DNA of 25,548 nucleotides, from IMG/VR virus record IMGVR_UViG_3300042518_001046, positions 1 through 25,548 of that record; one strand, written 5' to 3'. The stretch is from a virus. The notes beneath the pieces are model-generated. The model saw nothing but the letters and a program-made list of their open reading frames with translations. It made no database searches and was not told where the DNA came from. The stretch's first letter is position 1. Every line of letters begins with the position of its first letter. Below are positions 3,695-25,513 of the stretch, one piece after another. A program made the translations under genes and the position numbers.

Positions 3695-4270
3695 TCACTC
3701 GTAGAAAAGGTTGATCTGGCCAGCGTCAAACGCTGCGGTGCCGTTGGCCGACACGACACGCAGGTAGTTCAGCGCCCCGGCCAGGGTGACCACACCGCCG
3801 GAGACGATGCACCCTGCTGTGCCGGTGCTCACGAACTGGCCGGATGCCAGCCAGGTGTTGCCGCTGATGTTCGTGAACACCAGCTCACCGAAATGGTTGT
3901 AGCTGGCAGCGTTGTTGAACACTGGAATGCCGGCCGTGGAGCTCACAGGAACCACACCACTGGCCCAGCTGAAGACGGCATTGCCGGTGTAGCCCGACGT
4001 GGTTGGTGCTCCGCCTGTGCCGAGCTGAGCGAGGATGTCGCTGGCGCCGTTCGTGCTCACCCCGTTGAACAGCAGGGTGATGCGTCGGGCCCAGGAAGGG
4101 ATGCCGGTGAACTCAACAGCCACACCAGATGTGGTGGCTTTGGCTGTGTCGCGGACGATCGCGGTTGCACCGGCCGCCAGGTCGACGGCACCAACACTGC
4201 CGTCTTGGATGTCGCTTCCTGTGATGGTTGCGTCCGACACCATGGCGCCGGGGATCCTTTGCAGTGGCAT
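3695..4270 (-). CDS. Tail fibre protein (short, paralogue of upstream fibre)
   Basis: This 191-residue protein has a short N-terminal shaft (ITGSDIQDGSVGAVDL) and a C-terminal tip domain beginning near residue 45 (ATTSGVAVEFTGIPSWARR). The tip aligns end to end with the last ~150 residues of the neighbouring fibre at 4273-5397. Shared blocks are TGIPSWARRIT, FTNISGN/FRNISGN and (V/T)xANGTxxFDxGxxNxxYE. It lacks the long N-terminal baseplate-attachment region of that neighbour, so it may join the fibre as a second tip subunit or act as a decoy or accessory tip. The ATG lies two bases after the upstream gene's stop. Surface binding is inferred from fibre-like composition (Gly, Ser, Thr, Ala, Val) and position, not from a recognised catalytic motif. 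Confidence 0.75.
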   Translation of the reverse strand: MPLQRIPGAMVSDATITGSDIQDGSVGAVDLAAGATAIVRDTAKATTSGVAVEFTGIPSWARRITLLFNGVSTNGASDILAQLGTGGAPTTSGYTGNAVFSWASGVVPVSSTAGIPVFNNAASYNHFGELVFTNISGNTWLASGQFVSTGTAGCIVSGGVVTLAGALNYLRVVSANGTAAFDAGQINLFYE

Positions 4271-4692
4271 GATTATTCGTAAAGAATGTTCACGGTACCG
4301 AAGTCAAACACGTCAGTGCCGTTTGCAGTCGTGATGCGGAGCCGATCGAGAGTGCCGCTCAGGTTAATGCTGCCAGCCATCATCGTTGTGCCAGGCACTC
4401 CACCAGCAACGTAGGCAAAGACTCCATCACAACACCACGCATTGCCAGAGATATTTCTGAATGTAATTGACCCGCTGAATCCTTGCGCCGCACCGCCGCC
4501 GTACATCTCGAAGCCCGTCAGAGAGCCAAATGATGCCACACCATATCCGACTGAGCTGGCAAATGAGAGATACCCCGATGCGGTGACACCAGCAGATGTG
4601 CCGAGTCGATAGGTGATGTTGGAGATCCCGCTGATGCTTACTTCCCGGAGCATCACGGTGATGCGTCGGGCCCAGGAAGGGATGCCGGTGAA
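4076..4692. repeat. 36-bp direct repeat in two fibre genes
   Basis: Identical 36-bp copies lie at 4076-4111 and 4657-4692. Both encode FTGIPSWARRIT-type sequence at the start of the paralogous fibre tips. They flank about 545 bp, so recombination between them would swap or delete a tip. Confidence 0.9.
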
Positions 4693-5397
4693 GTCAATCG
4701 CCGTTCCGCTCGTTGTCGCCACTGCTGTGGCAAAGGTCAGCGGCTGAGACAGCTTGGTGGGCGTCACGGCACCATCGCCGAGCTTGGGCGTCGTGACGGC
4801 ACCATCGCGCAGCTTCACGGTGGTCACCGTGTCATCGCCTGGCGCCCCCTCAGATGACACGCCTAGGGCGAGCACCCGCACGATGGTGCCGACCGGCACG
4901 CCTTCGCTCAGCGTGAGCACCGTGCCTGTCATGTTCAGGCTGTACTCGCTGGTCGGCTGCACCACGCCATCGACGGTCACCAGCGCCGAGGGCTTGTTGA
5001 TGACCGGGGTTGCCAGCGTGAACGCAGCCTGGCCCGCTGTGGCCACAAACACCATCTCCGTTTGCGTCTGCCCCTGGACGTAGCGGGCATCGCTCTCGGC
5101 CTTCGTGAAGACGTCCTCAGCATTGGCCTTCTCGCCCAACTGCGTCATGACCGTCGCCGCGAAGTTGGGGTCATCCCCAAGTGCGGCCGCCAGCTCGTTC
5201 AGTGTGTCGAGGGCCCCAGGGCTGCCGCTGATCAGATCTGTGATCAGCTGGTTCACCTCCGCCATGGTCGGACGCGCGGTCACGTCCGTGTCGATTGCGG
5301 CAAGCGCGTCGCGTAGGCGTGGAACGTCGTCCACCAGGAAGTTGCCTGCGTTCGGCAGCTTGTAGTTGCGGTTCGTTGTCCGATCGTCGATGGGCAT
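4273..5397 (-). CDS. Tail fibre protein (receptor-binding)
   Basis: This 374-residue protein is a likely host-recognition fibre. The N-terminus (residues 1-50, with YKLPNAGNFLVDDVPRLRDA) resembles fibre attachment domains. Residues 54-95 hold the common fibre segment LISGSPGALDTLNELAAALG followed by DDPNFAATVMTQLGEKA. Residues 115-180 form a beta-rich block. Residues 191-216 contain short repeats of the form DGAVTxxKL that look like a shaft linker. The tip (about 221-374) is shared with the downstream gene at 3695-4270. It sits after the DUF4815 pair and before the sheath, where P2-like phages carry gpH/gpG fibre genes. The tip-encoding DNA is less GC-rich than the rest of the gene. Confidence 0.83.
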   Translation of the reverse strand: MPIDDRTTNRNYKLPNAGNFLVDDVPRLRDALAAIDTDVTARPTMAEVNQLITDLISGSPGALDTLNELAAALGDDPNFAATVMTQLGEKANAEDVFTKAESDARYVQGQTQTEMVFVATAGQAAFTLATPVINKPSALVTVDGVVQPTSEYSLNMTGTVLTLSEGVPVGTIVRVLALGVSSEGAPGDDTVTTVKLRDGAVTTPKLGDGAVTPTKLSQPLTFATAVATTSGTAIDFTGIPSWARRITVMLREVSISGISNITYRLGTSAGVTASGYLSFASSVGYGVASFGSLTGFEMYGGGAAQGFSGSITFRNISGNAWCCDGVFAYVAGGVPGTTMMAGSINLSGTLDRLRITTANGTDVFDFGTVNILYE

Positions 5398-5401
5398 GGG
5401 A

Positions 5402-6826
5402 TCAGATCACCACGAGACGAAGTTGCCGCACCTGCGGCCTGGCCGCAGCGGTGCCGTTCAGCGTGAGGCGCACGCGGGTGCTCGTCCCGCCAGCTGAGAA
5501 GTTCGCGATGGTGTGGACCTGCTCCACCCAACCGTCACCCACCGGAGAGCTGGAGGTCAGGGCAACGGTTTGCCATGTGCCGTCGCTCTTCTGGAACTCA
5601 ACTGTCACGCTTGATGCGCCAGGCAGGAGCGACTCAAAGGTGCAGCTCACCCGCGCGCCCGCAGCGCATGGGATCGCCCGAGAGATGTAATTGCCGCTCT
5701 CGGCCAGGTTGGCCAGCAGGCCCTGGGTGCCAGCGAACAGGTAGGGGCTTTCGGTGGTCGTGCCTCGCAGCACAGCGGACAGGCTCAGAGCCACGTTGAC
5801 GTCCTCAGCCAGCTGGATCCGGGCGTTGTCGCCTCCACGGATCTCGCTCCCGTCGGGCCGGGCGAAGAGGAACTCCACGTCGGTGGAGCTGCTGACCCGC
5901 TCGACACCTGCCAGGGCTGCAAGGTCTGTCACGTCACCCACCACGGCGAGGATGGTGCCGGTCGCGGGGGTCGCGGGCGTGCCGACGACGGGGAAGGTGT
6001 AGGTCGCGGGGCCCGTCGATGTGATGGTCACTGCGCCGTTGTACTCAGCCTGGGTGGCACCGCTGTGGACCACCTTCTGGCCAGTCGTGAACGGATGCCC
6101 CCCGTCCATGGTGGCCGTAGCGGTGGACCCCGATCGAGTGATCGTCACCTGCCCTGCTCTGAGCTGGCCTAGGTCAACAGTCCGGGTCGTGCTGGTGAAC
6201 GTGGCAGCGTAGAGCCGGAACGCCAGGTCAGCCTCCTGCACCGGTGTCCACGTTGATGCATTGCTGCTTTTCAGCAGGGTGCCAATGGTGTAGGGCTGGC
6301 TGGTGACGAAGGCGTCAGCAGCAGAGTCGAGCTTGCCCAGCTCCGCCAGGGCCACCGCATGGGTGGCGTCATCGGTGAGCAGCACCATGGCATACTCCAC
6401 GCCAGCCTGGAGGTAGACCGGCCGGGTCAGGCTGATCTTGTTCCAGCCGCCGGTCGTGATCGCACTGCCCTGCAGCACCCCCTCCGCGAGAGTGACAGCA
6501 TTCGGGAGGCCCAGCTCCGTCTCGCGGATCTCGACCACCACCTTGTTGCTGTTGCCGCCCTTGGCCGTGAACCAAACGTCCAGAGCGGTGACGTGCCGCG
6601 AATGATCGAGGCGGAACGTCTGAGCCAGGGGATCCCAGAACCTGGTCTCGATCGTGGTGAGCTGCCGCTGCGTGCGGCTGATGATCGTGCCGTCGCCGAT
6701 GAACCGCGCGGCGCCGAAGGAGCCCTGGCCGCCCAGGAAGGTTACGCGCTTCGTGCCGGTTGGCACGTTGGACGGGATCGTGATCGACCCCGTGATCTGA
6801 CCGTTGCTGTTTGCGGTGAGGGGCAT
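5402..6826 (-). CDS. Phage structural protein, probable split C-terminal half of DUF4815 protein
   Basis: This 474-residue, beta-rich virion protein begins with a Big-like beta sandwich (ITGSITIPSNVPTGTKRVTF, residues 11-30). A DPLAQTFRLDHSRHVTALDV segment follows at about residues 65-84 and a jelly-roll-like region (WFTAKGGNSNKVVVEIRETE) after it. The C-terminal ~100 residues resemble carbohydrate-binding or fibre beta domains. DPLAQTF is a motif I know from large phage tail/baseplate proteins in which it follows the DUF4815 region in one chain. Here the frame is the same as the upstream gene and only TGA-TAG plus six bases separate them. I infer a fission of one ancestral gene, or a two-subunit version of it. 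No strong ribosome binding site is seen, so coupling is likely. Confidence 0.75.
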   Translation of the reverse strand: MPLTANSNGQITGSITIPSNVPTGTKRVTFLGGQGSFGAARFIGDGTIISRTQRQLTTIETRFWDPLAQTFRLDHSRHVTALDVWFTAKGGNSNKVVVEIRETELGLPNAVTLAEGVLQGSAITTGGWNKISLTRPVYLQAGVEYAMVLLTDDATHAVALAELGKLDSAADAFVTSQPYTIGTLLKSSNASTWTPVQEADLAFRLYAATFTSTTRTVDLGQLRAGQVTITRSGSTATATMDGGHPFTTGQKVVHSGATQAEYNGAVTITSTGPATYTFPVVGTPATPATGTILAVVGDVTDLAALAGVERVSSSTDVEFLFARPDGSEIRGGDNARIQLAEDVNVALSLSAVLRGTTTESPYLFAGTQGLLANLAESGNYISRAIPCAAGARVSCTFESLLPGASSVTVEFQKSDGTWQTVALTSSSPVGDGWVEQVHTIANFSAGGTSTRVRLTLNGTAAARPQVRQLRLVVI

Positions 6827-11036: not shown

Positions 11037-11374
11037 CAGATCACCAGCCCTTCGATTTCGACGCGACGACCGTCAAGCAGATAGTAGCCAACCAGGCTGA
11101 GCTCGATCTGACCATCGGCTGTCACGCGATCGATGTTGATCCGTTCCAGTCTCAGGCGTGGCTCCCATCGGTTGAGGGCGTCCGCCGTGGCGGCAACCAT
11201 CTGGGTGACCAGGCTGGGGTTGATCGGGCGATCGACCAGCAGGGGGAGGTCGCTGCCGTAGTCGCGACGATGCACCCTGCTCCCGAGGGGGGTGGAGAGT
11301 ATGTCGCGAATGGATTGGCGCAGGTGGTCAAACCCCCCCAGCGCCTTGCCTGTGGTCGCGCTCATCCCGCCCAT
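11036..11374 (-). CDS. Baseplate gpW / T4 gp25-like protein
   Basis: This 112-residue baseplate protein belongs to the gp25/gpW family, a small lysozyme-fold-related wedge protein that nucleates sheath assembly; it is structural despite the historic lysozyme name. Conserved pieces are HLRQSIRDILSTPLGSRVHR (17-36), the near-invariant RDYGSDLP (37-44), and WEPRLRLERI at about residues 70-79. It starts exactly where the PAAR stop ends and overlaps gpJ by one base. A second Met (residue 4) is an alternative start. Confidence 0.92.
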   Translation of the reverse strand: MGGMSATTGKALGGFDHLRQSIRDILSTPLGSRVHRRDYGSDLPLLVDRPINPSLVTQMVAATADALNRWEPRLRLERINIDRVTADGQIELSLVGYYLLDGRRVEIEGLVI

Positions 11375-11634
11375 CAGTTCACCTCCACGTCAGGACTGCC
11401 ACCCTGGAGTGTGGCACCACAGGCCGTGGTGTCGCCCACGCGCGCGACGGCAAGGCCGTTGACGGTGGTATCGGGGCTGCCAGTGACGATCGGGTTGGGC
11501 CCATGGTCCGGGCAGTCGTAGGTGTCGCCCACGCGCGCGACGGCAAGGCCGTTGACGGTGGTATCGGGGCTGCCTGTTGTGACGGAGCCACCGTGGCTGC
11601 CTGGGTCACCGATGCGAATGACTGCTGGCATCAT
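11374..11634 (-). CDS. PAAR-domain spike tip protein
   Basis: This 86-residue PAAR protein should cap the gpV spike with a sharpened, metal-binding cone. The repeated unit GSPDTTVNGLAVARVGDT occurs at residues 21-38 and 52-69, followed by a partial third copy starting GGSPDVEV at the C-terminus. Likely metal ligands are His14, Cys41, His44 and Cys72, in the usual PAAR spacing. The two full units are identical at DNA level over 54 bp. A double Met at the start leaves 11634 or 11631 as the initiation codon; the first overlaps the gpV stop. Position directly after gpV is diagnostic. Confidence 0.93.
   Translation of the reverse strand: MMPAVIRIGDPGSHGGSVTTGSPDTTVNGLAVARVGDTYDCPDHGPNPIVTGSPDTTVNGLAVARVGDTTACGATLQGGSPDVEVN
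11428..11574. repeat. Exact 54-bp direct repeat within the PAAR gene
   Basis: Copy one is at 11428-11481 and copy two at 11521-11574; the copies are base-for-base identical and offset by 93 bp. Each encodes the 18-residue PAAR unit. The 39-bp spacer holds the Cys/His-containing loop. Confidence 0.95.
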
Positions 11635-12245
11635 GCTCCGGGGTTGAGTTTGATCTCGGGCGCAGACAGGCTGATCTGCTCCTCGGCCTGAACGATGAGG
11701 CGCTTCACCGTGATGGTGGCCTCAGGCAGGTCATCGCCGGAGGCTTCGGCATCGACGGAGATCTCGGCGGTGCACAGGCGGATGCGCCTGGCACGGAAGA
11801 TGATCTCGGACGTGCTGGCGCCAGCATCGACGGTGAGAGTGTGCGCCTCCCGGTCGTATTCAACGATGGTGCCATCGTCGTAGGAGCGGCGGTGAAGGCC
11901 TGCGCGATCACCGTTGGCATTGCCGTTGGAGAAGAGGCCAGGGATGGCGACGCCTGCGCCGAGCTCGCCAGAGGGGGCCAGCACCATCACCACCTCGCCC
12001 ACCTCCGGCGGATCCCAGACTCGATCCTTGCCTGCGCGGGGCGTGAACCAGGGCAGCCAGTCGGTGAGGATCGCGCCGTCCTGGAGGGAAACGCGGATGG
12101 CGGGAAAGCCCGCCGTCTCGCCGCTGTAGTCCGCTTCCGCCACGGTGCCGTAGCGGGCGACGTTGCTCAGCCGCCGCGCGTGATCGGTGGCCTCACGGCC
12201 GCCAACGCCAGATGTGGTCTGGTCATCCCTGTGGAGCTGAAGCAT
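11631..12245 (-). CDS. Baseplate assembly protein V (spike)
   Basis: This 204-residue protein is the trimeric central spike of the baseplate (P2 gpV family). An N-terminal region NVARYGTVAEADY (28-40) is followed by an OB-fold-like domain with the conserved WLPWFTPRAGKDRVWDPPEV and GEVVMVLAPSGELGAGVAIP (roughly 63-102). The C-terminal third is a run of short beta strands (TIVEYDREAHTLTVDA, IIFRARRIRL, ATITVKRLIVQAEEQISLSA) that fits a trimeric beta-helix. It sits just before the PAAR tip gene, with a four-base overlap. Its start overlaps the preceding small gene by 23 bases. Confidence 0.93.
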   Translation of the reverse strand: MLQLHRDDQTTSGVGGREATDHARRLSNVARYGTVAEADYSGETAGFPAIRVSLQDGAILTDWLPWFTPRAGKDRVWDPPEVGEVVMVLAPSGELGAGVAIPGLFSNGNANGDRAGLHRRSYDDGTIVEYDREAHTLTVDAGASTSEIIFRARRIRLCTAEISVDAEASGDDLPEATITVKRLIVQAEEQISLSAPEIKLNPGA

Positions 12246-12531
12246 GGGCCTGCCACATGGCGCGAGCGAGGAGGGAGGGCTGAGCTGCTGCGGGGCTGTC
12301 CTCGGGGAGCATCAACAGCTGAGCCGCGTGAAGGAAGATCCCCTGCCTGAGGGGATGCGATGGGTACGAAGGGATCGGCGCCTGGAGGAAGTCTTCGGCT
12401 GCTGCGGTTGCGCGATCCAGCGCTGAGGCAGCACGGTCGTGGTCCAGTGGGGTGCCGATGAAGTCTTCCAGGGCGGCGGGGGAGATCTGGAGGGGTGGAG
12501 GCTTGCGTCGACGGCGCGATGCGGTGCTCAT
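12223..12531 (-). CDS. Small protein, possible gp6-like head-tail connector
   Basis: This 102-residue protein begins with a basic stretch (SRRRRKPPPLQ). Helical segments follow: ALEDFIGTPLDHDRAASALD, RATAAAEDFLQAPIPSYPSH and HAAQLLMLPE. The spacing of an acidic/alanine helix, a proline-containing loop and an H-A-A-x-L helix recalls gp6-like connector proteins of head completion, but the resemblance is weak. If correct, it lies away from the other head genes. It overlaps the upstream gene by four bases (ATGA) and gpV by 23 bases. It could also be a baseplate or assembly factor. Confidence 0.55.
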   Translation of the reverse strand: MSTASRRRRKPPPLQISPAALEDFIGTPLDHDRAASALDRATAAAEDFLQAPIPSYPSHPLRQGIFLHAAQLLMLPEDSPAAAQPSLLARAMWQAHASAPQG

Positions 12532-13103
12532 GACGGTGTCGTCTTGGTGATTGTATGTGTAATACCAGTGAGTGTCGGATCATCAGGAGGCCCTTGTGAT
12601 GTATCGGTTTCGATTAACGATGTGACACTGAGGATTGAGTTTGGAACCGATGCGGAAATGCTATCTTCCAGGGGAGGAGGATCCAAAATGTCTTGGGTGA
12701 GGGCTTGAGTGATTCCTGTGTATGTGTCGGAGGTAGAATTGATTGTATAAGAAAAGCCCGCGAAACCCTGAAAGTTTAGACCTTTGAATTGTATTTGCTG
12801 TTCTGAGGAGGAGTTTACAAAATCAATGTAGGAGGTTCCGTTATCGAGTTCTACCAGATCGCTGTTGAACTCAATGGTGCTATTGCCCAGTGTGCAGACA
12901 TATGTGCCAGCGGTGACGATCGTGCCCAGCAACAAGCCATTGGTGCATGTTGGATACTGGCTGCCACCGCCTCCACCGCCTTCTGTGGGCAGGTCTGGCC
13001 AGTCCCCGGCGCGTCGCCACAGACAATTCTCATTCGGTAGCCAGACACCAGTTTCGCCTGGTGTTCTAACGCTACCGATTAGGCCACCATTGAATCCAAG
13101 CAT
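12528..13103 (-). CDS. Probable virion-associated protein, fibre-like, function unknown
   Basis: This 191-residue protein starts MLGFNGGLIGSVRTPGETGV followed by WLPNENCLWRR. I associate that start, from memory, with N-termini of structural proteins from cyanobacterial phages and prophages. A flexible EGGGGGGSQ linker lies near 41-49. The rest is Ser/Thr/Asn/Ile-rich and beta-like, with YPTCTNGLLL, TYVCTLGNSTIEFNSD and a Thr-rich end. The gene is clearly less GC-rich than its neighbours, which suggests recent exchange. It overlaps its neighbours by one and four bases, so it is built into the operon. Function is unknown; surface display or receptor contact is a guess. Confidence 0.6.
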   Translation of the reverse strand: MLGFNGGLIGSVRTPGETGVWLPNENCLWRRAGDWPDLPTEGGGGGGSQYPTCTNGLLLGTIVTAGTYVCTLGNSTIEFNSDLVELDNGTSYIDFVNSSSEQQIQFKGLNFQGFAGFSYTINSTSDTYTGITQALTQDILDPPPLEDSISASVPNSILSVTSLIETDTSQGPPDDPTLTGITHTITKTTPS

Positions 13104-13459
13104 CAGCTGATTTCCTCATAACTGATAACGACATCAACGGCGGTATTGGCCGTGGATTGAATCATCAGCTTGCAGCCTTCAGGGATATAGGTGTAAGCGG
13201 GTCCCCCGATCACAACCTGTGTGGCGTTTTCTGGGATGATAACGCCAGGCGCCATTGCACGCTGCGTGGTGCCATTGTCAAACACCAGTGTAATCCCTAC
13301 AGGATTAGCTGTAATGTTCGCGCAGTAGATTGAGTTGACTTTGAAGACCTTGTTGCTGTCTGCGGGATTGACAAGGAAGTTTGCCAGCGTTGTTGTGGCC
13401 TGGCTACTGGCCGCCCTTGCGTAGATTGCAGAGGGATTTTTGATGTTCGGTGCTGCCAT
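13103..13459 (-). CDS. Small beta-rich virion protein, cyanophage-type
   Basis: This 118-residue protein opens with AAPNIKNPSAIYARAAS. It continues with NKVFKVNSIYCANITANPVG (34-53) and a middle segment ending PENATQVVIGGPAYTYIPEG. It closes CKLMIQSTANTAVDVVISYEEIS. The pattern IYxxxA...GKVFKVNxxxxxN...LEEGD...SYEEIS is one I recall in structural proteins of cyanophages and related marine phages; this is recognition only. It has no signal peptide or membrane segment. It may decorate the capsid or tail. The gene shares CTGATG overlaps with both neighbours and has moderately low GC. Confidence 0.62.
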   Translation of the reverse strand: MAAPNIKNPSAIYARAASSQATTTLANFLVNPADSNKVFKVNSIYCANITANPVGITLVFDNGTTQRAMAPGVIIPENATQVVIGGPAYTYIPEGCKLMIQSTANTAVDVVISYEEIS

Positions 13460-13890
13460 CAGAAGATCATCCCTGCAATCACTGGATTGACGCCAATGTC
13501 GTCCAGGTCATCATAAGACCCGCTTGTGGCCACGGGTGCGAGGCCCGTGATGGTCTCAGCGCTTTGAGTGCCGGTATGGTTTGCCCTGTTGCGGAGGAAG
13601 GTGTCTGAGCTGTTGGCCGTGGCGCCATTGGCGATGCCAGCGAGCTTTGATGCGAACGACGACTGCTGCCACCATGCGGCGATGGTCTCCCACAGGAGCA
13701 AGGTGGACCAGACCTGAAGGCTCTCCGACTCCCCGTCAGTTACGGCTTCGGCAGAAGGGGCCTGGAGACGGGCGTCGTCGGAGTCGACCCTGCCCTCGAT
13801 CGCAGCCTCAAGCGCATCGAGGTTGGCATCGTGCTCCTGAGCAGTGAGCTTGGAGCCTTTGACCAGGCGGCGGACAAGGTTCAGTGGCAT
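13459..13890 (-). CDS. Fibre-like protein with adaptor N-terminus
   Basis: This 143-residue protein starts MPLNLVRRLVKGSKLTAQEH and then DANLDALEAAIEG, the kind of adaptor helix found at the N-terminus of tail fibre and tail-associated proteins. A helical middle (LQVWSTLLLWETIAAWW) precedes a fibre motif, FLRNRANHTGTQSAETITGL at about residues 100-119, which is common in phage fibre shafts. It is short for a complete fibre and may act as an adaptor or truncated fibre. Both ends overlap neighbours by one base with CTGATG. Confidence 0.68.
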   Translation of the reverse strand: MPLNLVRRLVKGSKLTAQEHDANLDALEAAIEGRVDSDDARLQAPSAEAVTDGESESLQVWSTLLLWETIAAWWQQSSFASKLAGIANGATANSSDTFLRNRANHTGTQSAETITGLAPVATSGSYDDLDDIGVNPVIAGMIF

Positions 13891-14501
13891 CAGTTGATCC
13901 GCTCCTGCTGGAAGAATAGTTCGACCGGGGCGACCGGGCAGGCCTCACCGGTGTTGTCGGCAGGGCAGCCTGGCGTGACCTGGCCACCAGGGTAGGCGCC
14001 AGATCTCATGATGTCGTCAGCATCTGGGTCGACGTAGGGATCGCTGCAGGAGCGGTAGGGGCGGTTGTAGTGGACCTCGTAGCGGATGGTGATGGCGCTG
14101 GTGGTGAGCTCGCCCTCAAACTCTGGATCGGCGCCGATGGTGTCCAGGTAAAAGGGATCGCTCGACTCGAAGCCAGGGATTGTCCAGCTCTCCAGGGCGG
14201 CTTCCACCTGCTCCGCGATGACGTCGAGTTCGGCATCGATGTCGCCGTTGCTTTGCGCGACGCACATGATCGAGACTATGGCGCGGCGCCGCTCGAAGCC
14301 ATTCCACCCGGATGCACTGCGTTCGCGGATCTCATCAGGTGCACGGGTGTGGACCATGATTGCCGGCAGCTGTGGCGGCTGATCGTCATCATCAGACAGT
14401 GGCATGAGGCGTCCGCTGTAAACGCGATTGCCCAGGGAGGGGATGGCGCTGCGGAGATGAGAGACGAAGGCGGAGCGGATCTGGGTGCGGGGATGGGTCA
14501 T
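13890..14501 (-). CDS. Tail terminator-like protein (gpU/Z-type minor tail protein)
   Basis: This 203-residue protein opens PRTQIRSAFVSHLRSAIPSL followed by GNRVYSGRLMPL. LPAIMVHTRAPDEIRERS lies near 45-62 and a repeated-strand core with DAELDVIAEQVEAAL after that. This layout is typical of tail-completion or terminator proteins that cap the tube and sheath and join tail to head. The C-terminal ~50 residues, with four Cys (SCSDPYVDPDADD, CPADNTGEACPV), are an extension beyond the usual ~150-residue family size. Location after the head-joining genes supports the role, although fibre-like genes now lie between. Confidence 0.68.
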   Translation of the reverse strand: MTHPRTQIRSAFVSHLRSAIPSLGNRVYSGRLMPLSDDDDQPPQLPAIMVHTRAPDEIRERSASGWNGFERRRAIVSIMCVAQSNGDIDAELDVIAEQVEAALESWTIPGFESSDPFYLDTIGADPEFEGELTTSAITIRYEVHYNRPYRSCSDPYVDPDADDIMRSGAYPGGQVTPGCPADNTGEACPVAPVELFFQQERIN

Positions 14502-14517
14502 GACTGGTTGGGGGATA

Positions 14518-15318
14518 CTACAGCGTGGGCTCTGTTAACTTGTAAGGGTGGTCGTTGGGCAGCAGGGCGGTGAAGCCCAGATCGTGGGCGGCACGGCCTT
14601 GCACGCGATACCAGTCCTCGTTTGATAAAGCACCAAAAAAAATAAGCTTCAAAACGGCCCAGCCATTCATGCCAGAGTTGGTTGCGCTGAAGTCATTGCC
14701 TATTCTTGACCTTGCTATGTTTTGATTGGCACTTGCTGTTGTGCCAGCAACAAATGGACCGCCATTCAGAGAAACTCTGCCCACTGTCCCATTGCGTTCT
14801 GAGCTTACAAGGCACCATTGATTGTCAATGGCAGCAGTCGTCGCGATTGTTCTGTTATTTCTGTACAACGCAATGCCAGTGGTTACGCCATAAAGCAAAG
14901 CCAGTCCGTTGTCATTGCTAAAGTCTTGTTCGCCTTGAGCCGCAAACGAAAACAGGCGGCCGACGCTAGCTGCAGGAGAACTTCTGCTATTTAGATGCAC
15001 AGAAAAACAGCTGATCTGGTTCCCGCCAAAAGCGAACGCGCTATCAAGGTACTGTCTTGTCGGTTGACTGCCTGGTCCGTTGATTATTCTGATCGCGCTA
15101 AACCCGTTTTGTACTGCAGTCTCATAAGTGGGACGGTTGCTTACAAGAGTTTGCGTGTAGTGGCGGTTGTTGCCGCTCAGGTCGCTCCATTGGGCAACCC
15201 CAGCCCCTACGAGCTGAACCGTTTCGCTATATCTTGCGTCGAGCCACACTGCAGGCGATAGCTGCGCGTAGGTCCATGGCTGGCTTGCCACCACCTTCCG
15301 CCTTGGAACAATCAGCAT
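14518..15318 (-). CDS. Lectin-like (LamG/concanavalin-type) phage surface protein
   Basis: I place the start at the ATG at 15318 because GGAGG lies seven bases upstream. Starting there gives 266 residues and removes an overlap with the upstream gene; a longer frame begins at 15405. After a short N-terminus, LSPAVWLDARYSETVQLVGA is followed by AQWSDLSGNNRHYTQ, the usual opening of jelly-roll lectin-like domains in phage and bacterial surface proteins. The ending SNEDWYRVQGRAAHDLGF also matches that class. The likely role is binding host glycans. The gene is less GC-rich than its flanks, consistent with exchange of a receptor-binding cassette. No catalytic motif is seen. Confidence 0.72.
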   Translation of the reverse strand: MLIVPRRKVVASQPWTYAQLSPAVWLDARYSETVQLVGAGVAQWSDLSGNNRHYTQTLVSNRPTYETAVQNGFSAIRIINGPGSQPTRQYLDSAFAFGGNQISCFSVHLNSRSSPAASVGRLFSFAAQGEQDFSNDNGLALLYGVTTGIALYRNNRTIATTAAIDNQWCLVSSERNGTVGRVSLNGGPFVAGTTASANQNIARSRIGNDFSATNSGMNGWAVLKLIFFGALSNEDWYRVQGRAAHDLGFTALLPNDHPYKLTEPTL

Positions 15319-15355
15319 CTTGTTGCCTCCCAGATATGGCCCACGGCGCCACTCC

Positions 15356-15970
15356 TTATTGTTCCAGCACATTTGCCCAACCGGTCGCCAGGTCAAAATC
15401 CTCACCCGCTCGGATTTGCTGGCGAAGTTCTTCCGCCCGCTCTTCGTTTTGGAACCCAGCCTGAACCAGAGACTGGTGACGCTTCAGCAGGCCGATCATG
15501 AACGGCGTCGCGGTCCCATCCTGATCCCGCCGGATCGCCTCGGCCAACAGGACGCCCAGCATTGGGTCCTCGTTGGAGGGATACACGCGGGAGTTGGCCA
15601 GCAACCTGGCCGCTTCGACCTGGTTCAACAGCTCCTCCTCTGGCCGGCGCAGCACCTCCAGCGTCTCTTCCCACGTCCCAGCGGGGGCGCCAGGCCTCGG
15701 ATTGGGGTAGTCCACAGGCCCCCAGCTGGCCCTCTCGTAAAAAATCTGAGGATCGTACTCACGCACCTGAGATTCACCTTTTAGGTAGAACCGAATCTCG
15801 GTGCCGTCGTAGGCCTGTCCGAACAGATTGGGCCACCTGACGCCACCTGGATTGGTCGCTCGCTCGCCGCGCACCGGCACGAATAGATCAACACTCTGCC
15901 CCTCCCGAGGGCCTTGTTCTTCGTAGAAGCGCACCCCGGTGTCGGGATTGGTTTTGATGGTGTCAGTCAT
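15356..15970 (-). CDS. Hypothetical phage protein in fibre cluster
   Basis: This 204-residue protein has no domain I can name. The N-terminal half is polar and beta-like (GVRFYEEQGPREGQSVDLFV, TEIRFYLKGESQVREYDPQI). The C-terminal half is helical (EEELLNQVEAARLLANSRVY, DPMLGVLLAEAIRRDQDG, ERAEELRQQIRAGEDFD). The split layout could suit a fibre-associated or chaperone-like protein that binds the neighbouring fibre products. It lies between a fibre-like gene and the lectin-like gene, two bases after the stop of the former. GC content matches the bulk of the window, unlike the lectin-like gene. Confidence 0.6.
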   Translation of the reverse strand: MTDTIKTNPDTGVRFYEEQGPREGQSVDLFVPVRGERATNPGGVRWPNLFGQAYDGTEIRFYLKGESQVREYDPQIFYERASWGPVDYPNPRPGAPAGTWEETLEVLRRPEEELLNQVEAARLLANSRVYPSNEDPMLGVLLAEAIRRDQDGTATPFMIGLLKRHQSLVQAGFQNEERAEELRQQIRAGEDFDLATGWANVLEQ

Positions 15971-15972
15971 GG

Positions 15973-16479
15973 TCAGACAGCAGAACGGGTAAAGAGAAAT
16001 TGAGCGAACAGGCCTTGGGCATCAGTGCCCACGCCAATCAGGTCGACGCCGATTCGATCGCCAGCGGTGAATGTTCCGCCGGTGATCGTAGCCGACACGT
16101 CAACCAGGCTGGCGCCTGATGCCAGCGTGGCGTTGCCGGTCAGCACCGATGTCTTGGTGCCTGCGGCGGTCCGCCGGTAGGCATTGAAGGTGCTGCTGCT
16201 GCTGCCCTTGGTATCAATGTGGCAGCCGAACTGCACCGCTGTCAGCGTGAAATTGCCCGACGGCACCGGCACCGGCACCTCCGCATAGTTAGTGCCAGCC
16301 GTCGCCGTCTCGCCGCGGTTGCTGATCATCAGGATGATGCCGTCGCCGATCGTCGGGGTGCCCCACGCCGCAGGCTGCCCGGGGCCCTGACTGATCGGCT
16401 GCTGCCCTGCAATGCCGGCCGAGCCGCCAAGCAGCAACCTCGCCTTCAGGTCTAGATCAGTCAGAAACTCTCTTGCCAT
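15973..16479 (-). CDS. Fibre-like / tail-associated protein
   Basis: This 168-residue protein begins REFLTDLDLKARLLLGGSAG, an N-terminal module of the same general kind as the upstream fibre protein (FTDFDFQEVSKPI). It continues into a Gly/Pro-rich linker (QQPISQGPGQPAAWG) and a beta-rich C-terminal domain (NFTLTAVQFGCHIDTKGSSS; GGTFTAGDRIGVDLIGVGTD). The similar opening suggests the two neighbours attach to the same virion site with different tips. The start overlaps the previous stop by one base (CTGATG). Receptor binding is inferred from architecture. Confidence 0.65.
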   Translation of the reverse strand: MAREFLTDLDLKARLLLGGSAGIAGQQPISQGPGQPAAWGTPTIGDGIILMISNRGETATAGTNYAEVPVPVPSGNFTLTAVQFGCHIDTKGSSSSTFNAYRRTAAGTKTSVLTGNATLASGASLVDVSATITGGTFTAGDRIGVDLIGVGTDAQGLFAQFLFTRSAV

Positions 16480-17270
16480 CAGCCAAGCACCACGACGCGG
16501 TAAGCATTAGATGCTGGAGCCGTTGCAAATACAACCGCCACAGCATTCACGCTCGTGCGCTGCACGTCCACCTCCACGTCATCAAACGTGCCCGAGTTTG
16601 GGAACACTCTCACGATCACATCGCGGGTGTTGAAGTTGTGGGTAACCGTGTAGCTGGTGGCGCTGCCATCGCCCACGTTCGCAGAGAACTTGCGCAGCCG
16701 CCCGCTCCAGTTCGCCAGCGTCTGCGGTGACACCGCCAGATCAGCAGCGGTGCCGGCATCGGTCTCGGGCTGCGTCGCCAGGCGCATGATTCCCGCCTGC
16801 GTGGTGCTGGCTGTTGGCGCACTGGTGCCCAGCGTGGTCCAGCTCACCGCCGTGCTGCCCAGCGTGCCGTTCACCGCCGTCTGCCGGTAAGTCACGCCAG
16901 CGCTGGTGCCTTCCTCTACCGTCGTGATGGCCTGCTCCAGTTCCGCGAACGTGCTGGCATCCAGCGCCCTGGTCATTGCCGACGCGGCACCGTTCCAGAC
17001 GTAGATGCCGTTCTCAGCCCCGGCCGTCTGCGCACGCACCAGCACCCGATCGACGCTGGCCATCGTGATGCCGTCGATGCTCGCGCCGGGGCTGGCCAGG
17101 TTCAGGTTGGCCTGCGTCGCAACGCGACACGAGTCTTTCCATGCCAAGCCTTCAACGGCTGAATCGACATAGGCCTTGTTGGCTGCATCGCCGTTGTTGG
17201 TCGGCGACGGCAGGTTGATGGGCTTCGAGACTTCCTGGAAGTCGAAGTCGGTGAAAATTGAACGGGGCAT
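16479..17270 (-). CDS. Tail fibre-like protein
   Basis: This 263-residue protein has an N-terminal anchor followed by SPTNNGDAANKAYVDSAVEG (22-41), a classic fibre motif. It continues with LAWKDSCRVATQANLNLASP and a beta-rich block (VDRVLVRAQTAGAENGIYVW; AMTRALDASTFAELEQAITT) seen in many phage fibre proteins. Next comes another fibre joint, TQAGIMRLATQPETDAGTAA followed by DLAVSPQTLANW. The last ~60 residues (SYTVTHNFNTRDVIVRVFPN onward) form a small beta domain. That domain matches the tip of the next-upstream gene at 17278-17682. Host-surface recognition or an adaptor role is likely. Confidence 0.8.
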   Translation of the reverse strand: MPRSIFTDFDFQEVSKPINLPSPTNNGDAANKAYVDSAVEGLAWKDSCRVATQANLNLASPGASIDGITMASVDRVLVRAQTAGAENGIYVWNGAASAMTRALDASTFAELEQAITTVEEGTSAGVTYRQTAVNGTLGSTAVSWTTLGTSAPTASTTQAGIMRLATQPETDAGTAADLAVSPQTLANWSGRLRKFSANVGDGSATSYTVTHNFNTRDVIVRVFPNSGTFDDVEVDVQRTSVNAVAVVFATAPASNAYRVVVLG

Positions 17271-17277
17271 GGTGTCC

Positions 17278-17682
17278 TCAGATCAGGCGGGCTAGGCCAG
17301 CAGTTGCTGGGTTCAGTGTAACGAGGGTTTGATTCACGCTCGGATGTGCAATCTCCGCGTCAATCTCTTGCATCCCACTGTTGAACAGTTCGACGCTGGG
17401 ATACCGTCCCAGGTTGTGATTGATCGTCCAAGTCGTCGCTGGCGTGGACTGCGTGTGGACGTAGGCGGCGAGGCCGCCGCCAGTGGACCCCAGCGCGGCA
17501 TAGCGTGCGTCGCCCTTGTCCTGGGTGAGATAGCCAGGGTGCGGATCGGCCGCAGCAGCATGAGCCGCTACGGCGGTAGCGGCAGTACCTGACGACTCCT
17601 TCCCGTCGATCGCCTCATCCAACGCGACCAGCGTCTCGCGCAGCTGCTGTCCACTGAACGGCAGTGATGGAATCGTTGTCAT
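17278..17682 (-). CDS. Short fibre-like protein with shared tip domain
   Basis: The start is set at the ATG at 17682, which overlaps the joining-protein stop by four bases; a longer frame from 17781 would overlap that gene by about 100 bases and is unlikely. The 134-residue product has an adaptor-like helix (QQLRETLVALDEAIDG), an Ala-rich linker, and the fibre motif GYLTQDKGDARYA. A C-terminal ~50-residue beta domain follows, beginning TTWTINHNLGRYPSVELFNS and ending GLARLI. That domain has the same T-x-x-HN pattern, then alternating strands, as the tip of the downstream fibre gene. Confidence 0.7.
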   Translation of the reverse strand: MTTIPSLPFSGQQLRETLVALDEAIDGKESSGTAATAVAAHAAAADPHPGYLTQDKGDARYAALGSTGGGLAAYVHTQSTPATTWTINHNLGRYPSVELFNSGMQEIDAEIAHPSVNQTLVTLNPATAGLARLI

Positions 17683-18062
17683 GCTCCCGCCGTGATAATT
17701 GTGTTCGCTCGAATGATCGTCTCCGCGTAGATCAACCCAACGCTTTCCGCTGCACTCACTCGATGCAACATCAGCAACCACCCGCTGTGGCCATCAGGCT
17801 GCGGATCTCTCACCTGATATAACCCGCCTCGCACTTCTACACTGTCGCCCTGCCTCGGCTTGAACTGCAGATCCTCGAAGTTCACCAGCAGCACCGGCTG
17901 CGTGCTGTTCACACGCACGCCGGTCTCTGGATCCAGTCCGATGTGCGACGCTTGGAAAACACCCTTGGCAACCACGACCTGCCCAGACCGGGTGTAGGTG
18001 ATGGGTTCCCCCATCACCCGCACAACGGCCCTGAGCGCCCTGTTCGCCAGGTCGTTCAACAT
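17679..18062 (-). CDS. Head-tail joining protein (lambda FII-like)
   Basis: This 127-residue protein likely sits at the head-tail interface. It begins MLNDLANRALRAVVRVMGEP, then ITYTRSGQVVVAKGVFQASH, and has the beta-rich core VNFEDLQFKPRQGDSVEVRG followed by LYQVRDPQPDGHSGWLLMLH. This beta pattern and length fit the lambda FII / short prophage head-tail joining class. It directly follows the decoration-like gene, the expected place for a head-completion protein, and overlaps that gene by one base. Assignment is by pattern and position. Confidence 0.72.
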   Translation of the reverse strand: MLNDLANRALRAVVRVMGEPITYTRSGQVVVAKGVFQASHIGLDPETGVRVNSTQPVLLVNFEDLQFKPRQGDSVEVRGGLYQVRDPQPDGHSGWLLMLHRVSAAESVGLIYAETIIRANTIITAGA

Positions 18063-24985: not shown

Positions 24986-25513
24986 CTAACCCTTGCCAGG
25001 CACCCATGCCTTGCTCAGCGCTCCCGCTCGACCCTTCGTCACCTGCGCAGGCATCCCCGCACGGTTCACCAACCGCAACACCTCCTCGCGCTCCATCCCC
25101 AACCGCTTCTGGATCTCACGCTGAGGCACGCCATCATCCATCATCCCCCGCACAATCTCCGCCATCCGCAGCACCGCATGGGTCCCCCGGGCCCGGTTGT
25201 GCCGGATCGTGCTCATCATCCGATGCACAGGATCCAACAGCACCTGCACCGTCGGCACCATGCCACCCGTCAACGCGGCCACCCTTGGATCTGCGCTCAG
25301 CGTCCAGCGGTGGAAGCCGTCCACGATCTGGAAACAGCCATCATCTCCCTCGGGCAGCGTCACGATCGGCTGCGTCCAGCCATCTTCCAACAGGCTCGTC
25401 AGCAGCAGGCCCAGCTCCGGCGCCGCAACGTGGTTCGGGTTGTAGTCGTTGGCGCGCAGACGATTGCGTGCCAGCCACCGCACCTTCGACACCGGTTGGT
25501 TCTTCACGCTCAT
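24986..25513 (-). CDS. ParB/IbrB-like N-terminal domain protein
   Basis: This 175-residue protein has the ParB/sulfiredoxin-type domain in residues 10-110. LRANDYNPNHVAAPEL (19-34) is followed by LLLTSLLEDGWTQPIVTLPE (36-55) and the hallmark FQIVDGFHRW (61-70), then MVPTVQVL. Residues 125-150 (MMDDGVPQREIQKRLGMERE) look like a helix-turn-helix, and the C-terminus is basic. Such solo proteins are common upstream of phage terminases and include IbrB-type regulators. They may bind DNA or hydrolyse nucleotide (CTP), but activity here is not shown. GAGG lies about eight bases before the ATG. Confidence 0.85.
   Translation of the reverse strand: MSVKNQPVSKVRWLARNRLRANDYNPNHVAAPELGLLLTSLLEDGWTQPIVTLPEGDDGCFQIVDGFHRWTLSADPRVAALTGGMVPTVQVLLDPVHRMMSTIRHNRARGTHAVLRMAEIVRGMMDDGVPQREIQKRLGMEREEVLRLVNRAGMPAQVTKGRAGALSKAWVPGKG

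Follow-up and report, generated by a model that had tools for sequence, protein, structure and literature searches.

A candidate cargo slot for neck-borne, modular receptor-binding fibres between the head-closure and gpV genes of a phage from IMG/VR

Why does a phage carry eight small genes, several of them fibre-like or lectin-like, between its head-closure gene and its baseplate genes, and what would hold their products on the virion? The question is raised by the IMG/VR record IMGVR_UViG_3300042518_001046, which in its entirety (25,548 bases) is the window analysed here, its genes being read off the minus strand. Few structures of neck fibres have been solved, and the way in which phages alter them is poorly understood. 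A preliminary description of this DNA had placed the eight genes (A to H) between an FII-like gene and the gene before gpV, with a tail terminator gene in their midst, and had listed a second fibre set at 3695-6826; both statements hold, as all eight genes are contiguous minus-strand open reading frames (ORFs), mostly overlapping, the tail terminator is embedded among them, and the second fibre set is real. We consider it probable, from comparison with related loci, that this island serves as a cargo slot for modular receptor-binding fibres borne on the neck, in which a chain of proteins would begin on the head-closure ring via the C-terminal tail of the head-closure protein Hc1. The island and its borders comprise the following features (aa, amino acids):

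17679..18062, minus strand: Hc1, head-closure/head-tail joining protein of the lambda gpFII type (Pfam Phage_attach, 6.2e-17; phrog_82, head closure Hc1, 2.1e-19), proposed here as the neck ring protein that carries the fibre
17682..17723, minus strand: TII-type C-terminal tail of Hc1, ETIIRANTIITAGA, of the type that matches the next adaptor; the proposed site at which the adaptor of A docks
17278..17682, minus strand: A, putative first fibre segment, with an adaptor (aa 1-26; 17605-17682) and a socket (aa 65-134; 17281-17490)
16479..17270, minus strand: B, putative second segment (phrog_2647, 'head decoration', 6.6e-61; PDB 9nx3, 4e-22)
15973..16479, minus strand: C, putative third segment, with a plug (aa 1-12), MAREFLTDLDLK, inside its N-terminal region (aa 1-42), and a tip (aa 42-168)
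15356..15970, minus strand: D, 204 aa, putative partner of the C tip
14518..15372, minus strand: E, variable lectin-like tip, with an N-terminal plug, EWRRGPYLGGNKMLIVPRRK, and a replaceable tip (phrog_10356, 7.6e-16)
13890..14501, minus strand: tail terminator (phrog_4204, 1.1e-14), syntenic in related loci and dividing slot 1 from slot 2 at a fixed position
13459..13890, minus strand: F, putative second-slot fibre, with an FN-type adaptor (aa 1-34) and a small tip, from adaptor alignment
13103..13459, minus strand: G, small accessory protein of 118 aa, whose family also occurs in the third cargo slot, after gpI
12528..13103, minus strand: H, with a GFNGGLIG-type N-terminus and a Ser/Thr-rich tip
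12223..12531, minus strand: small gene before gpV, distal boundary of the island, its position conserved in relatives

Cargo slots and the exchange of their contents

We collected 80 loci via the capsid protein and analysed the gap in the 39 that have both Hc1 and the tail terminator. These two genes were always syntenic, and the gap between them (slot 1) was empty in six loci, measured 142 nucleotides in two, and held 1.2-3.9 kb of fibre and lectin genes in 31. A second slot, from the terminator to gpV, was filled in 4 of 33 loci and a third, from gpI to the next gene, in 4 of 19. The contents vary from phage to phage, with families including Mtd_N, Laminin_G_3, Gly_rich_2 and tail-fibre families, and the tips that relatives carry at the position of E comprise Laminin_G_3, Lcl_C and Gly_rich_2; it looks as if cargo could move between the slots. 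Four loci (L011, L024, L026 and L075) have a first slot that is empty or nearly so and carry a gene of the G family, together with other cargo, right after gpI.

Replacement of single parts can be followed at short range. One record (L002) is a near-identical twin of the window, and two further loci (L003 and L232), which overlap by 794 identical bases and represent one sibling phage, have flanking proteins 76-96% identical to those of the window. In this sibling a single fibre of 504 aa stands in place of A, B and C, keeping the adaptor of A (81% over 26 aa) as well as C's tip (85%); D is kept, E shares only the 24-aa plug and then continues into an unrelated tip, and F, G and H are retained with 79, 83 and 67% identity, respectively. 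Distances among B proteins did not track those among major capsid proteins (rho 0.09, Mantel p 0.23); the correlation between capsid and portal distances was 0.91 in the same taxa. Judged from these comparisons, the island is a hot spot of exchangeable genes of fibre and lectin type, predicted to serve host contact. Variation of this kind had been anticipated in the preliminary description and is what the relatives display: their loci contain anywhere from no cargo to 3.9 kb, different tips follow an unchanged plug, the folds of the tips differ, and the same eight genes are not carried by all.

Linkage between neighbouring segments

Exchange is accompanied by a strict order of parts. The last 70 residues of A (the socket) also end quite different proteins, with bodies of 96-822 aa, which always stand directly before B: all 79 distinct B genes with readable upstream DNA have a socket directly upstream and, in the reverse direction, B follows the socket in 73/73, the pair being found also in phages of Thermus, Microcystis and Rhodococcus. 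B itself is laid out as an N-terminal plug (MPRSIFTDFDF), a body and a C-terminal socket homologous to that of A (hhalign probability 96.7, E 3.7e-10). The gene after B begins with a plug in 71 of 81 cases, as against 82 of 2167 background ORFs, and these genes, which encode 62-606 aa, are unlike one another beyond the plug. Because of these counts, the succession of adaptor, joint and differing tip, recognised in several of the products when the locus was first described, lies far beyond chance. In the Bxz1 group, domains of the B type occur twice, in gp103 near the capsid genes and at the C-terminus of the 1151-aa gp232 (L228 9792-10697; L229 4204-7659, Mycobacterium phage ET08). That A, B and C are fragments of one broken gene was considered and rejected, as in two related loci (L015 and L053) the same genes are likewise separate and intact.

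Farther along, the tip of C is conserved and, in relatives, is fused straight to other adaptors; whatever the adaptor, the gene with this tip lies directly upstream of D in 46/46. Three apparent cases of a C tip without D turned out to be an artefact of the search range. The products of the island had been called small fibre-like, lectin-like or unknown, which stands overall, except that D is not fibre-like: its AlphaFold model (predicted local distance difference test, pLDDT, 85.8) has a beta part and three helices. Its structural matches are weak and concern phage DUF4376 or 'tail assembly chaperone' proteins (BFVD, E 0.03-0.35), one member of the family weakly matching DUF4376 (E 0.069); D had no match in cultured phages, PDB sequences or PDB folds, and no significant sequence match to chaperone families. 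By analogy with the fibre-chaperone pairs described in PMC10579305, D is probably a fibre-assembly chaperone or folding partner of the C tip, or its cap. The start of E is most likely the ATG at 15372, because relatives begin there with the conserved EWRRGPYxGGNxMLIVxRR.

The preliminary description had favoured an exchangeable array over one fibre. Its exchangeable contact genes are borne out; the strict linkage of A socket and B, of B and plug, of C tip and D, and of D and E plug instead favours a single chain of segments, A-B-C-D/E, alongside a second set, F-G-H, rather than a loose array.

The root of the chain and rival explanations

Two short N-terminal adaptors recur, the A-type (AN), which occurs on many different protein bodies, and the F-type (FN), which is found either after Hc1 or after the tail terminator, and the C-terminal tail of the upstream gene product depends on the adaptor. 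The core of Hc1 ends GWLLMLHR; where an A-type adaptor comes next, the tail is TIIxANTIIxA (9/9), and where an F-type adaptor comes next, it is VFxxGVFxxGVF (13/13). No such tail is present in 4 of 5 loci in which the terminator directly follows Hc1 (empty slot), nor in any of the 25 with other adaptor types; the exception, L042, has a GVF tail on Hc1 and its FN fibre gene beyond the terminator, in slot 2. Over all loci, 57 combinations were matched and none crossed (37 FN/GVF, of which 34 strict and three near variants; 20 AN/TII, 16 and four), with a Fisher test of 8e-16 that ignores relatedness and serves as a guide only. Nearly identical Hc1 cores change the tail along with the adaptor (L028/L032 versus L037/L073; the window, L011 and L042), and these tails are also carried by Hc1-like proteins from a different PHROG family and by a tail terminator. 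The C-terminus of the terminator (PxxAELFSQEEPIN type) is the same whether or not an FN-type gene follows. The tails appear to be constrained as protein, with fewer replacements than neutral drift would give, because their codons show 101 synonymous versus 90 nonsynonymous differences in the TII type and 104 versus 100 in the GVF type. A further type of first gene (MIRPARxDITIPQRxTFRxRM) follows an Hc1 that ends in LHRTSNR or similar without a long tail (L020, L021, L033, L036, L039, L043, L054, L058, L071, L072 and L237), and likely has a different mode of attachment.

Since the tail of Hc1 covaries with the first adaptor, we infer a chain that is anchored at the neck, with Hc1 as its probable root, which the preliminary description had missed; gpV and gpJ, named there as possible partners, are not where this covariation points. 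In the mechanism that we propose, the C-terminal tail of Hc1 would bind the short adaptor at the N-terminus of A, whose C-terminal socket would receive the plug at the start of B; the plug of C would in turn enter B's own C-terminal socket. C would end in the conserved tip that is matched to D, and E, with its constant plug and freely replaceable lectin-like tip, would make the contact with the host, perhaps by recognising carbohydrates; F, G and H would constitute another set. With docking peptides at the ends of genes that overlap, a single recombination could swap tail and adaptor together, one segment, or the tip alone. We lean towards a portable two-level docking code, in which tails of either type, exchangeable and borne by otherwise unrelated neck proteins, would select the matching short adaptors, and a repeated socket/plug pair would join segments across genes. 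No description of an Hc1 tail code was met in the literature searched, a limited search that leaves novelty unproven.

Several observations weigh against a neck-rooted chain. Tail and adaptor are usually adjacent, so that co-transfer without binding could yield much of the matching, and only L042 separates them; the loci are related, and the counts are therefore not independent events. F has an FN adaptor although the window contains no GVF tail, among the other filled second slots only that of L042 comes with this tail, and L056 breaks the rule with an FN adaptor behind a tail-less Hc1. Many filled slots have other adaptors and no Hc1 tail, E could be modelled only poorly by AlphaFold (pLDDT 56), too weakly for a fold search, and B falls in a family named 'head decoration'. 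This last point would suit exchangeable capsid-surface proteins, i.e., head decoration or head fibres that stabilise the capsid or bind its surroundings, as would further relatives of B, among them Bixzunavirus gp103 near capsid genes and PDB 9nx3 ('Capsid decoration protein'), and the fact that other myophages bind their hosts by capsid fibres (phage 7-7-1; PMC12796354). We nevertheless regard this explanation as unlikely. The family name does not settle the matter, because 9nx3 is most similar to the C-terminus of gp232, a large virion protein of 1151 aa whose gene neighbours minor tail genes; moreover, an E3 relative is named tail fibre protein in one record, the slot-1 cargo of relatives includes Mtd_N and tail-protein families, and the adaptor tracks the tail of the neck protein Hc1 and not the capsid or decoration protein, on which ground plain capsid decoration was rejected.

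Ordinary baseplate tail fibres, whose genes came by chance to lie in the head-tail gap and for which the Hc1 tail would only mark a recombination block, are given a similarly small chance. Tail and adaptor are indeed adjacent DNA, the G family and other fibre genes stand after gpI, the classical site of P2 fibres, where slot 1 is empty or nearly so, and FN-like adaptors of Achromobacter siphophages sit behind the tape measure; however, the tails are constrained as protein, are present on unrelated neck proteins and absent with empty slots, and L042 retains the GVF tail on Hc1 though its FN gene lies beyond the terminator. It is quite improbable that every protein attaches to the virion alone and that the linkage of neighbours merely reflects operon conservation: F does have its own adaptor, apart behind the terminator, and the N-terminus of H differs, but the socket of A is found on unrelated bodies yet always directly before B, the genes after B have only the plug in common, and the C tip changes adaptors but keeps D. 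If the docking code is true, unrelated phages could mount any host-binding tip at one and the same site on the neck. If a neck-rooted chain is right, the 13-14-residue tail of Hc1 would predict from sequence whether a neck fibre is present and of which kind, and the socket/plug rules would let annotators assemble multi-gene fibres that are now listed as hypothetical or 'head decoration' proteins; it would also allow host sensing at the neck to be tested directly, probably in phages of freshwater picocyanobacteria.

Genomic context and comparison with known systems

On the head side, the minus-strand order is ParB-like gene, terminase, gpW, portal, fused protease-capsid, DUF2190-type decoration, Hc1 and the island, which is followed by gpV, PAAR, gp25, gpJ, gpI, two large phrog_877 proteins, two fibres, sheath and tube. 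The ParB-like gene (24986-25513) lies directly before the terminase genes, and the small separate PAAR protein (11374-11634), directly after gpV, is probably the spike tip. For the gene before gpV (12223-12531), earlier called connector-like, the conserved position stands, whereas that label is unproven and no PHROG family was matched. Searches of viral contigs with E, G and H yielded nothing beyond the twin, the sibling and a small number of distant loci, close relatives of H being confined to twin and sibling contigs; the tail terminator had no cultured relative by tblastn and no match in PDB, and matches of F to antibody chains in PDB were dismissed as chance. Among bacterial genome bins, the nearest capsid proteins are those of Cyanobium and Synechococcaceae metagenome-assembled genomes (L236 and L237; 69 and 73%), which provide a lead to the host; in L237 the capsid gene is divided into two ORFs. 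Because of these capsid relatives, and of an adaptor match to the cultured freshwater Synechococcus phage S-LBS1, the hosts of this freshwater phage are likely picocyanobacteria.

In S-LBS1 the FN adaptor (84%) is found in A09, directly behind the Hc1-like A08 with its C-terminal tail of the GVF type (VYVPDVFQAGVYL), and a tail fibre gene precedes a gpU-like gene, as here (genes A08-A11; PMC6157547); S-LBS1 differs in being a siphovirus without an A-B-C-D-E chain. In a term search, its published analysis (PMC6157547) did not mention neck, collar or whisker. Branched receptor-binding protein complexes (G7C, CBA120, the KP32/Menlow groups and phiKp24; PMC6872550, PMC9700779) likewise combine an anchor protein and a docking site with short conserved peptides at the N-termini of secondary binders, and show broken synteny and exchange of tips; such peptides on otherwise divergent binders in broken synteny are found in the present loci too, as the plug after B (71/81) and as the EWRRGPY plug with unrelated tips. 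Those complexes use T4 gp10-like docking domains and are mostly depolymerase spikes on the tail; in contrast, the socket profile and B matched no T4 gp10 chain in a PDB sequence search, and the root would be the neck. The joint exchange of a fibre tip and the small protein that follows, as in Mu Tfa, Alteromonas A5 gp8-gp9 and V22 gp26-gp27 (PMC10579305), resembles that of the C tip and D, which is placed directly after its cognate tip and inherited with it; D differs by the lack of a significant sequence match to chaperones and by its weak structural likeness.

A non-essential fibre at the portal vertex or neck is also represented by the neck passage structure of the lactococcal phage TP901-1 (PMC4493119), which is encoded at the end of the structural module and not in the head-tail gap. 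The spikes of Vibrio phage XM1, a contractile phage, provide the precedent for attachment to the two proteins whose genes flank the present slot: trimers of gp40 on the neck contact the head-completion protein gp4 and the tail terminator gp5, and a second set of spikes stands on the baseplate (PMC10457771). A fibre-like body with a host-binding tip, as in this class of neck spikes, is indicated here by matches to fibre families and lectin types. In XM1, however, gp40 is a single gene product that docks via an Ig-like domain of 100 residues (PMC10457771), whereas in the window the docking parts would be a short tail of Hc1 and a short adaptor, and the fibre appears to be split over several exchangeable genes.

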